Positions 12,886-23,548 of a stretch of 64,000 nt of DNA are shown here, piece after piece. The stretch covers positions 124,001 to 188,000 of the forward strand of contig NZ_RQJX01000004.1 in assembly GCF_003850045.1 (NCBI RefSeq), in the 5' to 3' direction. The position numbers were made by a program, and so were the translations under genes. This stretch comes from Aeromicrobium camelliae. Its GTDB lineage: Bacteria; Actinomycetota; Actinomycetes; Propionibacteriales; Nocardioidaceae. Below the pieces are notes generated by a model. The model saw only the letters and a list, made by a program, of their open reading frames with translations, was not told the DNA's origin and did no database searches. Numbering within the stretch: position 1 is the first letter of the stretch; each line of letters begins with the position of its first letter.

Positions 12886-12945
12886 GAATCCGCCGCGCAC
12901 TGCTGGTCTGTGGCGCCGCAGCGTCCGGGAGCCGATACTGAGGCC

Positions 12946-13791
12946 ATGCGTGCGATCTGGAAGGGCGCCATCAGCTTCGGTCTGGTGAACGTGCCGGTCA
13001 AGCTGTACTCGGCCACGGGCAGTCACGACCTCTCCCTCCACCAGGTCCACGCCGAGGACGGCGGCCGCATCCGCTACGAACGCCGCTGCGAGGTCTGCAA
13101 GAAGGTCGTCGCCTACAGGGATATCGACAAGGCGTACGACGACGGCACCCACACGGTCGTCCTCACCAAGGACGACATCGGGGCGCTGCCGGCCGAGAAG
13201 AGCCGTGAGATCGAGGTCGTGGAGTTCGTTCCGTCCGACCAGATCGATCCGCTGCGCCTCGACAACAGCTACTACCTCGAACCGGAGGAGCGCGCGGTCA
13301 AGCCGTACACGCTGCTGCGGCGAACGCTCGAGGAGACCGACCGCGTGGCCATCGTGCAGTTCGCCCTGCGTCAGCGAACCCGCCTCGCCGCGCTGCGCGT
13401 GCGCGACAAGGCCATGGTGCTGCAGACGCTGCTGTGGGACGACGAGGTGCGCGCCCCGGAGTTCGACATCCTCGACAAGAACACCAAGATCAGCGACAAG
13501 GAACTGAAGATGGCCGGGCAGCTCGTCGAGTCGCTGTCCGGCGACCTCGACACCTCGGAGTTCGAGGACGAGTACCAGGTCCAGCTCCGCGCCCTCGTCG
13601 ACGCCAAGCTCGAGCAGGGCGACACGCTCGATACCGAGAAGACCTTCGGCGTGACCGAGGAGGACGAGGACGAGGGCGGCGAGGTCGTCGACCTGATGGA
13701 GGCGCTCAAGCGCAGCGTCGACGCCCGCAAGAAGAAGACCGACGGCGCGAAGAAGAAGTCGTCGAGCCCGAAGAAGCGCGCGTCCGGCTGA
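12946..13791 (+). CDS. ku: Ku protein (NHEJ DNA-end binding)
   Basis: 281 residues, typical of bacterial Ku. It opens MRAIWKGAISFGLVNVPVKLYSAT, has the Ku core including RYERRCEVCKKVV and ends in a Lys-rich tail (RKKKTDGAKKKSSSPKKR) that in this family strengthens DNA binding. As a homodimer it threads onto broken ends and recruits LigD, which is encoded at 14571. GATACT (12934-12939) lies 6 bp before ATG 12946, again a leaderless arrangement. The regulator between ku and ligD is on the opposite strand. Confidence 0.96.
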   Translation: MRAIWKGAISFGLVNVPVKLYSATGSHDLSLHQVHAEDGGRIRYERRCEVCKKVVAYRDIDKAYDDGTHTVVLTKDDIGALPAEKSREIEVVEFVPSDQIDPLRLDNSYYLEPEERAVKPYTLLRRTLEETDRVAIVQFALRQRTRLAALRVRDKAMVLQTLLWDDEVRAPEFDILDKNTKISDKELKMAGQLVESLSGDLDTSEFEDEYQVQLRALVDAKLEQGDTLDTEKTFGVTEEDEDEGGEVVDLMEALKRSVDARKKKTDGAKKKSSSPKKRASG

Positions 13792-13795
13792 CCGG

Positions 13796-14507
13796 TCAGG
13801 CGTCCGGCGGGAACTCCGACAGCGGGGTGCGCCGGTACGTGACGACCCACTCGGCCACCTCGCGGAGCTTGCGGTTGTGGTGCTGGGAGTAGCGCCGCAA
13901 CACGTCGAACGCGCGGTCGGCGTCGATGTCGAACCGCTCCATGAGGATGCCCTGAGCCTGGCCGATGAGCTTGCGCGCGTCGATCGCGATCCGCAGGCCC
14001 TCCTCGCTCTGCGCAGAAGCGACCGCCACCGACGCGTGGCGGGCGAAGATCGCCGCGACGGCCAGATCATCGTCGTCGAACGCCTTGGGGTGCTCGGAGA
14101 AGAGGTTCCGCGAGCCGTACCGACGCTCGGGCGTCTCCAGGCGCACACTCACGACGCTGCGAATACCGAGCTCGGCCACCGCGGGGCCCCACGCCGGCCA
14201 GCGCTCGTCGACGCTGATGTCATCCGAGACGGCTGATGTCATCCGAGACGTAAATGCCCCCGCCCTCGAGTGCGTCGAGGCACGGGCCCTCGTCGTGGGT
14301 GAGCTGGAGCTCGTGGGACGTCCGCACCCGCTGCGAGGTGGCGGCGGCCGTCTCCACCCGCGAGCGGGCGTGGACCAACAGCAAGCCGGCGTCGTCGCAG
14401 CCGATCGCGGACTTGGCATACCGCGTGACGAGCTCGACCGTCTTCTCGGTGCTGTCCTGCGTGTGCAGGTCGAGCGCCATCTGAGAGAAGAACTCCGGAA
14501 TGTCCAC
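13796..14507 (-). pseudogene. GAF-ANTAR regulator split by a 19-bp tandem duplication
   Basis: The N-terminal GAF part reads from GTG 14507 (VDIPEFFSQMALDL...GGGIYVSDDIS) and ends at a TGA at 14222-14220 after 95 residues. The remaining GAF part and the ANTAR domain (EEGLRIAIDARKLIGQAQGILMERF...) run in another frame down to 13796. The cause is visible: a perfect 19-bp unit occurs twice in tandem (14213-14250). Removing one copy restores one 230-residue GAF-ANTAR protein. The extra copy also creates an ATG (14242-14240) from which the ANTAR half could be made as a separate 148-residue protein. ANTAR domains bind RNA and act as antiterminators. It lies between ku and ligD, divergent from ligD. 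Confidence 0.85.
14213..14250. repeat. Perfect 19-bp tandem duplication
   Basis: The unit gctgatgtcatccgagacg occurs at 14213-14231 and again at 14232-14250 with no mismatch. 19 is not a multiple of three, so it shifts the frame of the GAF-ANTAR gene. It could expand or contract by replication slippage or recombination. Confidence 0.97.
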
Positions 14508-14570
14508 TGGCCCTCCGCGTCATATCGTGGGCCACCAGAGTAGAGGACGAGTCGGACGGGAAGGCCCGGT

Positions 14571-16904
14571 ATGGCACAGACGCCACAGACGGTATCGATC
14601 GACGGCCGCCTGCTGCGTCTGACCAATCCCGACAAGGTGCTCTACCCCGCCACGGGCACCACCAAGGCGGACGTCATCGCCTACTACGTGCAGATCGCAC
14701 CGGTCATGCTGCCGCACCTCGCCGGCCGTCCGGTGACGCGCAAGCGGTGGGTCGAGGGTGTCGGTACGGACAAGAAGCCCGGTGAAGTGTTCTTCGAGAA
14801 GAACCTGCCGGACTCGGCACCGTCGTGGATCCGCCGCGTCTCCCTGCAGCACACCTCACACCGCAACGAGTATCCGGTCTTCAGCAGTCCCGCCGACCTC
14901 GCCTGGGCCGGCCAGGTCGCCGCCCTCGAACTGCACGTGCCGCAGTGGCGCGTCGACCAACTCGGCACGATGCAGAACCCCGACCGGCTGGTGCTCGACC
15001 TCGACCCTGGACCCGGCGCCGGCCTGGCGGAGTGCATCGAGGTCGCCCACGAAGCGCGCGACCTGCTCTCGGGGATCGGCCTGGACCCCGTCCCCGTGAC
15101 TTCGGGCAGCAAAGGCCTGCACCTCTACTGCGCGATGGACGGCGTGCGCGACGCCGACTACCTCAACGCCTTCGCGAAGCAGCTGGCGGTGTCGCTGGAG
15201 GAATCGATGCCCGACCTCGTCGTCAGTTCGATGGCGAAGTCGAAGCGCCAGGGCAAGGTGCTCGTGGACTGGAGCCAGAACAACCGCAACAAGACGACGA
15301 TCTGCCCGTACTCGCTGCGCGGGCGAGCGCGGCCGACCGTCGCCCTCCCGCGAACCTGGGACGAGCTGGACGGCGACCTCGAACAGTTGGAGTTGGACGC
15401 GGTTCTCGAACGCATGGAGGACCTGTCCGATCCGATGGCCGCGCTGGGCCACTCGGGGCCGGACCGGCTCGAGCGCTACCGCTCGATGCGCGACGCGTCC
15501 GCGACCCCCGAGCCGGTGCCCGCGGACCGTCCCGCCGACCGACGCGGGGAGGAACCGATCTTCGTCATCCAGGAGCACCACGCGCGCCGGCTGCACTGGG
15601 ACTTCCGACTCGAGCACGACGGCGTGCTGGTGTCGTGGGCGTTGCCCAAGGGGGTGCCCACGTCGCCGAAGGAGAACCATCTCGCGGTGCAGACCGAGGA
15701 TCATCCGATGGAGTACGCCACCTTCGCCGGGGAGATCCCGAAGGGGCAGTACGGCGCCGGGTCCGTGGAGATCTGGGACACGGGGACGTTCACCGCGAGC
15801 AAGTGGCGCGACGACGAGGTCATCGCGACGTTGCGCGGCCAGGACGACGGCGGCCTGGGCGGTGAGCCTCGCACGTACGCGCTCATCCGGACCGGCGAGA
15901 ACTGGTTGATCCACCTCATGAAAGACCAGCAGGCCGACCCTCCGGCAGAGCTGGGAGCGGTCTCCCCGATGCTCGCCACTCTCGCCGACGCGCGCTCGCT
16001 AGGTGATGAGAGCGAGTGGGCGTTCGAGATGAAGTGGGACGGGGTCCGCACGATCGCCGTGGTGAACGACGACGGCGTCCGCCTCTACAGCCGGTCCGGA
16101 CGCGTCACGACGGCCACCTATCCCGAGGTCGCCGAGGAACTGGCCGGCCTTCCGGCGGGCACGGTGCTGGACGGCGAGATCGTCGCCCTCAACGAGCAGG
16201 CGGTCCCGAGCTTCGGGCTGCTCCAGCAGCGCATGGGGCTGGAGAAGCAGCGCGAGATCACAGCCGCCCGCGAGCGCGTCCCGGTGACGTTCCTGGCGTT
16301 CGACGTACTGGCGCACGAAGGGCGATCCTCGACGGGACGTACCTACGAGCAGCGCCGCGCGGCGCTCGCCGAGCTCGACATCGACGGGGTCGCAGCCATC
16401 ACGCCGCCGGCGTTCACCGGGTCACTGCGCGAAGCCGTGGCCGCGAGCCGCCGCTGGAAGCTGGAGGGGGTCGTGGCCAAGCGCCGCGACAGCACCTACG
16501 CCGTCGGCAAGCGGTCGACCGCGTGGCTCAAGATCAAACACCAGGAGATGCAGTCGGTCGTCATCGGCGGTTGGCGACCGGGCGCCTCGTCCGGGTTCGG
16601 TTCGCTCCTGCTCGGCATCCCGAGCGAGGAGGGCCTGCGGTACGTGGGCCGCGTCGGGACGGGATTCACCGACGCCCAGCGACGCGAACTCGGCGCGCAG
16701 CTGCGCCGACTCGAGCGGAAGACCTCGCCGTTCGTGGAGGTTCCGCGCGACGTGAGCGCAGACGCACACTGGACGACACCCCGATTAGTGGGTGAAGTCG
16801 TCTACGGTGGCTGGACAGGCTCGGGGATCCTTCGGCATGCGAGCTGGCGTGGTTTACGGAAGGATCTAGAGCCAGACGATGTCCACGTCGAATCGAAGGA
16901 GTGA
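14571..16904 (+). CDS. ligD: ATP-dependent DNA ligase D, polymerase-phosphoesterase-ligase
   Basis: 777 residues with all three NHEJ activities in the mycobacterial order. Polymerase/primase: residues about 10-290, with the catalytic DLDPG near 143-147 and SGSKGLHLY near 178-186. 3'-phosphoesterase: about 328-460, with HHARRLHWDFR near 337-347. Ligase: about 465-777, with the adenylation motif EMKWDG and nucleophile Lys near 488, then the OB fold. It repairs double-strand breaks with Ku. The small protein at 16908 follows 3 bp after the stop, so they probably share a transcript. Confidence 0.97.
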   Translation: MAQTPQTVSIDGRLLRLTNPDKVLYPATGTTKADVIAYYVQIAPVMLPHLAGRPVTRKRWVEGVGTDKKPGEVFFEKNLPDSAPSWIRRVSLQHTSHRNEYPVFSSPADLAWAGQVAALELHVPQWRVDQLGTMQNPDRLVLDLDPGPGAGLAECIEVAHEARDLLSGIGLDPVPVTSGSKGLHLYCAMDGVRDADYLNAFAKQLAVSLEESMPDLVVSSMAKSKRQGKVLVDWSQNNRNKTTICPYSLRGRARPTVALPRTWDELDGDLEQLELDAVLERMEDLSDPMAALGHSGPDRLERYRSMRDASATPEPVPADRPADRRGEEPIFVIQEHHARRLHWDFRLEHDGVLVSWALPKGVPTSPKENHLAVQTEDHPMEYATFAGEIPKGQYGAGSVEIWDTGTFTASKWRDDEVIATLRGQDDGGLGGEPRTYALIRTGENWLIHLMKDQQADPPAELGAVSPMLATLADARSLGDESEWAFEMKWDGVRTIAVVNDDGVRLYSRSGRVTTATYPEVAEELAGLPAGTVLDGEIVALNEQAVPSFGLLQQRMGLEKQREITAARERVPVTFLAFDVLAHEGRSSTGRTYEQRRAALAELDIDGVAAITPPAFTGSLREAVAASRRWKLEGVVAKRRDSTYAVGKRSTAWLKIKHQEMQSVVIGGWRPGASSGFGSLLLGIPSEEGLRYVGRVGTGFTDAQRRELGAQLRRLERKTSPFVEVPRDVSADAHWTTPRLVGEVVYGGWTGSGILRHASWRGLRKDLEPDDVHVESKE

Positions 16905-23213: not shown

Positions 23214-23300
23214 GGAGATGTCGCATAGTGGCCTAGTGCGCCCGCCTGCTAAGCGGGTTGAGGTTGATTCCTCTCGCGGGTTCAAATCCCGCCATCTCCG
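23214..23300 (+). tRNA. tRNA-Ser (anticodon GCU)
   Basis: An 87-nt class II tRNA: acceptor GGAGATG/CATCTCC, anticodon stem CCCGC/GCGGG with loop CTGCTAA (anticodon GCT), a long variable arm typical of tRNA-Ser, and T-loop GGTTCAAATCC. The discriminator base is G. Confidence 0.96.
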
Positions 23301-23323
23301 CTGCCACGCAAGGAACAGCAGCG

Positions 23324-23358
23324 AAGGGGACCAGCCACGCAACGTGGTTGGTCCCCTT
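23324..23358 (+). terminator. Terminator-like hairpin 1 after tRNA-Ser(GCU)
   Basis: AAGGGGACCA-g-CCACG-caa-CGTGG-t-TGGTCCCCTT forms a 16-bp stem including one G-U pair and a 3-nt loop, 24 bp downstream of the tRNA. Confidence 0.85.
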
Positions 23359-23372
23359 GCTTATTGCCCCTA

Positions 23373-23548
23373 GAGGAGCTCGCTCCGCTGAAAAGCGAGA
23401 AACAGCAGCGAAAGAGACCAGCCACGCAACGTGGTTGGTCTCTTCGCATCTCAGCCACAGAGGAGCCCGCTCCGCTGCCACGCCCTTACGCTCACGCACC
23501 TTCTCGCCGCAACGCGCAAGCACATCCCTGGAGGAGCCCGCTCCGCTG
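23373..23548. repeat. Three copies of an 18-bp GC-rich element
   Basis: GAGGAGCnCGCTCCGCTG occurs at 23373-23390, 23460-23477 and 23531-23548, identical except for one base. Each contains the inverted repeat GGAGC/GCTCC. The first two follow the two hairpins at a similar distance, so hairpin plus element look like one duplicated unit. Confidence 0.85.
23412..23444 (+). terminator. Terminator-like hairpin 2, tandem copy with compensatory changes
   Basis: AAGAGACCA-g-CCACG-caa-CGTGG-t-TGGTCTCTT repeats hairpin 1; the lower stem differs on both arms so that pairing is kept (GGGG/CCCC becomes AGAG/CTCT). A shared GCAGCGAA precedes both. Confidence 0.85.

Follow-up and report, generated by a model that had tools for sequence, protein, structure and literature searches.

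Gene organization between ku and ligD

The stretch of Aeromicrobium camelliae DNA that was analyzed, referred to here as the window, is 64 kb in length. Two genes of an end-joining system, ku (12910–13791, plus strand; TIGR02772 at 304 bits and PF02735) and ligD (14571–16904, plus strand; NF007210 at 1075 bits, TIGR02776 and its open reading frame), are both intact and flank a minus-strand gene that encodes the parts of a GAF-ANTAR regulator in two different frames. This gene is convergent with ku and divergent from ligD, with 63 bases between its start codon and that of ligD. It begins with a GTG at 14507, positioned behind a GGAGG stretch, and its final stop codon is located at 13798–13796. 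A tandem duplication of 19 bp within the GAF coding region divides the gene into two halves.

From its translation, the first half (14220–14507, minus strand) consists of 95 codons from the GTG start and corresponds to the N-terminal half of a GAF domain. Its last three residues are read from the second repeat unit and are followed by a new TGA stop codon at 14222–14220. The second half (13796–14242, minus strand), identified by translation and Pfam, is 148 codons in length when counted from an ATG at 14242. It covers the GAF domain on its C-terminal side, followed by a complete ANTAR domain (PF03861, scoring 75 bits where the cut-off is 27.3). Neither half has any further stop or frameshift. 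The first half had no Pfam match at an E-value of 0.001, and the GAF matches of the second half were partial and below the Pfam cut-off.

The nearest relative compared was Aeromicrobium phragmitis 9W16Y-2 (G014). Its orthologue (L033:4743–5435) is a 230-residue protein in which the GAF and ANTAR domains are both complete, as in the actinobacterial one-component regulators that combine PF13185/PF01590 with PF03861. The first half of the gene in the window is 90% identical to this orthologue over 91 residues and the second half is 90% identical over 143 residues. Unlike these one-component regulators, the window genome has no single frame containing both domains; a single polypeptide with both the ANTAR domain and a complete GAF domain was found in A. 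phragmitis and not here.

A perfect 19-bp tandem duplication

The repeated unit, GCTGATGTCATCCGAGACG, is present twice in a head to tail arrangement. The copy nearer the gene start (14232–14250, minus strand) contains the ATG at 14242–14240, and the copy nearer the ANTAR end (14213–14231, minus strand) matches it at 19 of 19 positions. The first-pass annotation had described two identical, adjacent units at 14213–14250 that break the frame inside the GAF domain, and this description is confirmed. The same break is apparent from the spacing between an xGPC motif and an RWxxWG motif, which here amounts to 88 bases, or 23 codons plus 19 bases. The edges of the array present no homology, with zero matching bases on the left and zero on the right.

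Given the composition of the window, approximately 3e-6 perfect 19-bp tandems are expected in 64 kb; thus, the duplication is not a product of chance. No perfect tandems with units of 13–60 bp occurred in 12 surrogates that an order-5 Markov model generated from the window. With respect to units of at least 13 bp, one perfect tandem was found in the window and none in a 400-kb sample from the rest of its genome, which comprised 20 stretches, each of 20 kb, on three contigs (approximately 13% of the genome; 464 kb when the window is included). None was found in 400 kb of A. phragmitis, sampled as 20 stretches from one contig. The absence of a second case in 400 kb rules out a genome prone to short tandem duplications, and from these counts the 19-bp duplication is a single event.

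Comparison with orthologues in the genus

Among 49 Aeromicrobium genomes that were searched, the window's own included, ku was identified in 46 at an E-value of 1e-20. A GAF-ANTAR gene adjoins ku in 29 of the 46, again with the window's own included, where adjoining is defined as starts less than 1.5 kb apart and is based on one DNA-level match per genome. A profile search agrees with these assignments among the matches listed. In the remaining 17 ku-bearing genomes no such gene is found inside this 1.5-kb limit, although two of them (G017 and G046) have a relative 2–4 kb away among the matches listed. Three of the 46 (G011, G025 and G043) have no relative anywhere in the genome at an E-value of 1e-20, also among the matches listed.

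In all 27 of the ku-adjacent orthologues that were fetched, tblastn and alignment placed both halves in one frame with no insertion, and a second 19-bp unit was present at the site in none of them. The 28th orthologue (G012) was found by the profile search to have one open frame, with no stop, over profile positions 1–228 of 237. The window genome matches the same family profile in two pieces that overlap (positions 2–93 and 85–229) and belong to different frames, and it is the only one split in this manner among the matches listed at ku-adjacent loci. In 24 of the 27 fetched orthologues, these being the ones measurable by the search pattern, 23 codons separate the xGPC motif from the RWxxWG motif. 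The pattern was unmatched in the other three (L026, L028 and L030), for which the alignment shows the same 19-base gap relative to the gene in the window.

Since all 28 of the other ku-adjacent orthologues are in one frame, the duplication is confined to the lineage of the window genome. The earlier suggestion that the ancestor was intact and was broken by the duplication is upheld by the same count. It had also been considered that every relative might share the split gene, and this is not so. The gene itself is probably dispensable because 17 of the 46 genomes are without it near ku, three are without any relative, and the window genome has three other ANTAR genes with open frames of 204–288 codons.

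The surroundings of the gene were also apparent from 70 loci found with the ANTAR half. The fetched stretch contained ku in 17 of 17 Aeromicrobium-titled loci (L033–L047, L049 and L082; the window counterpart is 12910–16904) versus none of the 53 others, and ligD in 16 of the Aeromicrobium loci. A. terrae (L049) has ku directly next to ligD, and its GAF-ANTAR gene is found beyond ligD. In A. ginsengisoli, a sigma-70-family factor with regions 2, 3 and 4 (L037:2990–3757) is encoded between ligD and the GAF-ANTAR gene, unlike the window where the two genes are directly adjoined. A literature search by title and abstract opening, with most subscription journals outside its scope, found nothing that ties an ANTAR gene to Ku or LigD. 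A bacterial paper that came up in it (PMC2693142) uses the phrase 'perfect tandem duplication'. By term search, a study on ANTAR-target RNAs in actinobacteria (PMC8164766) mentions DNA repair once and makes no mention of Aeromicrobium, GAF or ligase.

Predicted consequences for the protein

The predicted fold of the A. phragmitis orthologue (mean pLDDT = 86.9, pTM = 0.70) consists of a domain of the GAF type and the helices of an ANTAR domain. The best Foldseek matches were mostly phytochromes and other GAF-bearing chains, for example 8w26, 5w10 and 2y8h. When the break is placed on this model, it falls after approximately residue 92, in the loop between a strand (85–88) and a helix (100–106), and as a result the GAF sheet is divided. 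From the model, the first half would retain three strands of the sheet and is predicted to be unable to fold as a GAF domain.

With respect to the second half, the first-pass annotation had stated that the duplication creates an ATG that overlaps the new stop codon. Two ATG codons have to be distinguished here. The one in the ANTAR frame (14242–14240) begins 20 bases before the new stop at 14222–14220 and does not overlap it; moreover, it belongs to the 19-bp unit itself, and all that the duplication does is to bring one copy into the frame of the ANTAR domain. The overlapping ATG (14223–14221) is in a third frame, and it was rejected as a start since that frame ends after 24 codons. No Shine-Dalgarno-like stretch was seen by eye at a normal distance before either ATG 14242 or ATG 14223. 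Three upstream candidates in the ANTAR frame, ATG 14419, TTG 14626 and TTG 14635, were rejected since none had a convincing ribosome-binding site by eye. A promoter and terminator scan of 13600–14700 found nothing.

Because a ribosome-binding site is lacking, the second half may at best be poorly translated. Together with a first half that would not fold as a GAF domain, this suggests that the gene is effectively off. With no piece that contains a full GAF domain and no good start for the second piece, the function of the whole gene is very probably lost. The ANTAR half is still open and conserved, and some residual or gained function is possible.

Age of the break and selection

There are no differences between the two copies of the unit, which under neutral Poisson change limits the time since the duplication to at most 0.079 substitutions per site per copy (95% bound). 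In comparison with A. phragmitis, dS is approximately 0.6 in the GAF-ANTAR gene, or roughly 0.3 per branch if evenly split, 0.58 in ligD and 0.32 in ku. The corresponding dN/dS values of the first half (0.097) and the second half (0.074) fall between those of ligD (0.056) and ku (0.116). As the values for the two halves are still low (0.07–0.10), the break is, judged by its sequence, recent and decay has had no time to show.

When amino acid replacements were assigned to branches, seven belonged to the window genome and 11 to A. phragmitis, with three that could not be assigned. Two of the seven are in the strand RYGSLNLY, where R is found for L (14110–14108) and F for Y (14101–14099); both residues are constant in 17 of 17 outgroups. 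These two replacements are a weak hint that constraint may have loosened, either before or after the break. Over all conserved columns, departures number eight of 111 here versus six of 111 in A. phragmitis. Relative to ku and ligD combined, the GAF-ANTAR gene of the window genome has an excess of such departures (8/111 versus 11/505, p = 0.011), and the A. phragmitis gene gives nearly the same result (6/111 versus 10/505, p = 0.051). The excess is therefore not specific to the window genome and it does not date the break.

Origin of the duplication

The 19-bp copy would most likely have arisen either by replication slippage with the addition of one extra base or by fill-in of a staggered break that was then joined bluntly. 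A pair of GACG sequences is located nearby, at 14210 and 14228; however, slippage between them would generate an 18-bp unit that keeps the frame, and a 19-bp unit might be obtained only if one base were added. For the fill-in route, an exact copy without edge homology would be the expected product.

In the eukaryotic cells studied in PMC8355091, small tandem duplications of this kind need Ku80. The duplication described here resembles those fill-in and end-joining products since it is less than 100 bp, exact, head to tail and without homology at its edges, and the window genome encodes an end-joining system. However, the enzymes named in PMC8355091 (CST, Pol alpha-primase, 53BP1 and Shieldin) are eukaryotic, and an origin by Ku and LigD would be hypothetical in the present case. 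The first-pass annotation had drawn attention to the end-joining genes next door. While it is correct that ku and ligD flank the gene, their nearness gives no reason for an event at this site because end joining acts chromosome-wide and because the gene order is common to much of the genus.

Interpretation of the split gene

It is likely that a recent, lineage-specific and frame-breaking duplication of 19 bp inactivated, or at least split, a GAF-ANTAR regulator that was ancestrally whole. An ordinary recent loss-of-function mutation is the best explanation for everything seen. As expected of a recent pseudogene, the frame is disrupted here while the other 28 ku-adjacent orthologues are intact. 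Reversion could occur by the loss of one unit, as for any perfect tandem duplication, and no mark of an evolved switch was found at the locus.

An error of assembly or sequencing, or a collapsed mixed population, in which case a single unit would be present in the true or major form, is unlikely. The draft status of the genome, with 40 contigs, and the single unit in all 27 of the fetched orthologues favor this reading, but an array of 38 bp is shorter than an ordinary short read and an assembler has little reason to invent one. Furthermore, no other perfect tandem of at least 13 bp occurs in the 464 kb of the genome that were sampled. The window genome and that of A. phragmitis were screened against each other for frame switches, that is, for coding-like queries giving two matches in different frames, and after filtering this produced three candidates from 134 A. 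phragmitis queries against the window genome and none from 149 in the reverse direction. Of these three, only the GAF-ANTAR gene has adjoining halves at 90% identity. The halves of another are approximately 650 bases apart, and the last is a 111-codon frame with halves that are 20 bases apart and 82% and 77% identical. A looser version of the screen returned 7 of 74 and 5 of 55 candidates, most of which are probably antisense shadow frames; one of its candidates (L133:7959–8765) was rejected because it falsely extends an intact gene in the upstream direction. The class with a stop inside the match (28 of 31 and 43 of 43 candidates) was set aside since it was swamped by antisense shadow frames in GC-rich DNA.

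It is very improbable that the locus represents a stable two-gene form in which translation from ATG 14242 yields the ANTAR half by itself, to act as an ANTAR protein free of its sensor. The ANTAR domain is complete and, according to PMC7496416, a disturbed contact between sensor and ANTAR domain in NasR leads to constitutively active proteins. However, the product in the present case would carry half of a GAF domain that is likely unfolded, and the 28 other ku-adjacent orthologues are all unsplit. The start at 14242 has no Shine-Dalgarno-like stretch at a normal distance and it lies upstream of the stop, an arrangement that is poor for re-initiation.

There is equally little to be expected from a reversible switch, either on/off or fused/split, that is kept because the loss or regain of one unit toggles the regulator. 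This had been the proposal of the first-pass annotation. Its appeal lies in the identity of the units and in two halves that are both still open and conserved, and perfect adjacent copies can indeed recombine or slip back. The split gene resembles contingency loci, which show phase variation by repeat number, in that its frame is set by the number of units. Unlike contingency loci, there are only two units, in one genome, and the array is kept in none of the 27 fetched orthologues. One duplication in sequence that is otherwise not repetitive has the look of any one-off mutation, and reversibility is general to perfect tandem duplications. That 17 of 46 genomes lack the gene within 1.5 kb of ku, and that the window genome has three other ANTAR genes, also speaks against such a role, and the proposal was not sustained.

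Reversible tandem duplications that break the frame have been described for the ssp1 gene of fission yeast (review PMC13207564). The duplication in the window is similar to that class as a short tandem duplication within a coding frame that leads to a premature stop and that is reversible in principle. However, the fission yeast duplications are mediated by microhomology, of which there are zero bases at the unit edges here, and one copy number only was seen here, in one genome. Least probable of all is a selected reversible toggle in the ku–ligD neighborhood, with one-copy (sensor-coupled) cells and two-copy cells that would interconvert with help from the end-joining or slippage machinery; the two-copy cells of such a toggle would lack the regulator or make an ungated ANTAR fragment.

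Significance and other features of the window

The preferred reading, a recent loss-of-function mutation, illustrates that a single short duplication suffices to remove a regulator that is probably dispensable. It also serves as a caution that frameshifts found in a single genome are not to be taken as switches. If one-copy and two-copy cells coexisted, the locus would offer a simple parallel in bacteria to the reversible duplications of fission yeast. A more durable lead is the position of a GAF-ANTAR gene next to ku, which is shared by more than half of the genus.

Elsewhere in the window, a search of Rfam at gathering thresholds identified only three tRNAs. An imperfect tandem repeat with a unit of 87 bp is located at 23214–23477 (2.1 copies, 82% matches). 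The repeat starts from the 3′ end of a tRNA gene (23214–23300) and could be the trace of an integration at that tRNA.
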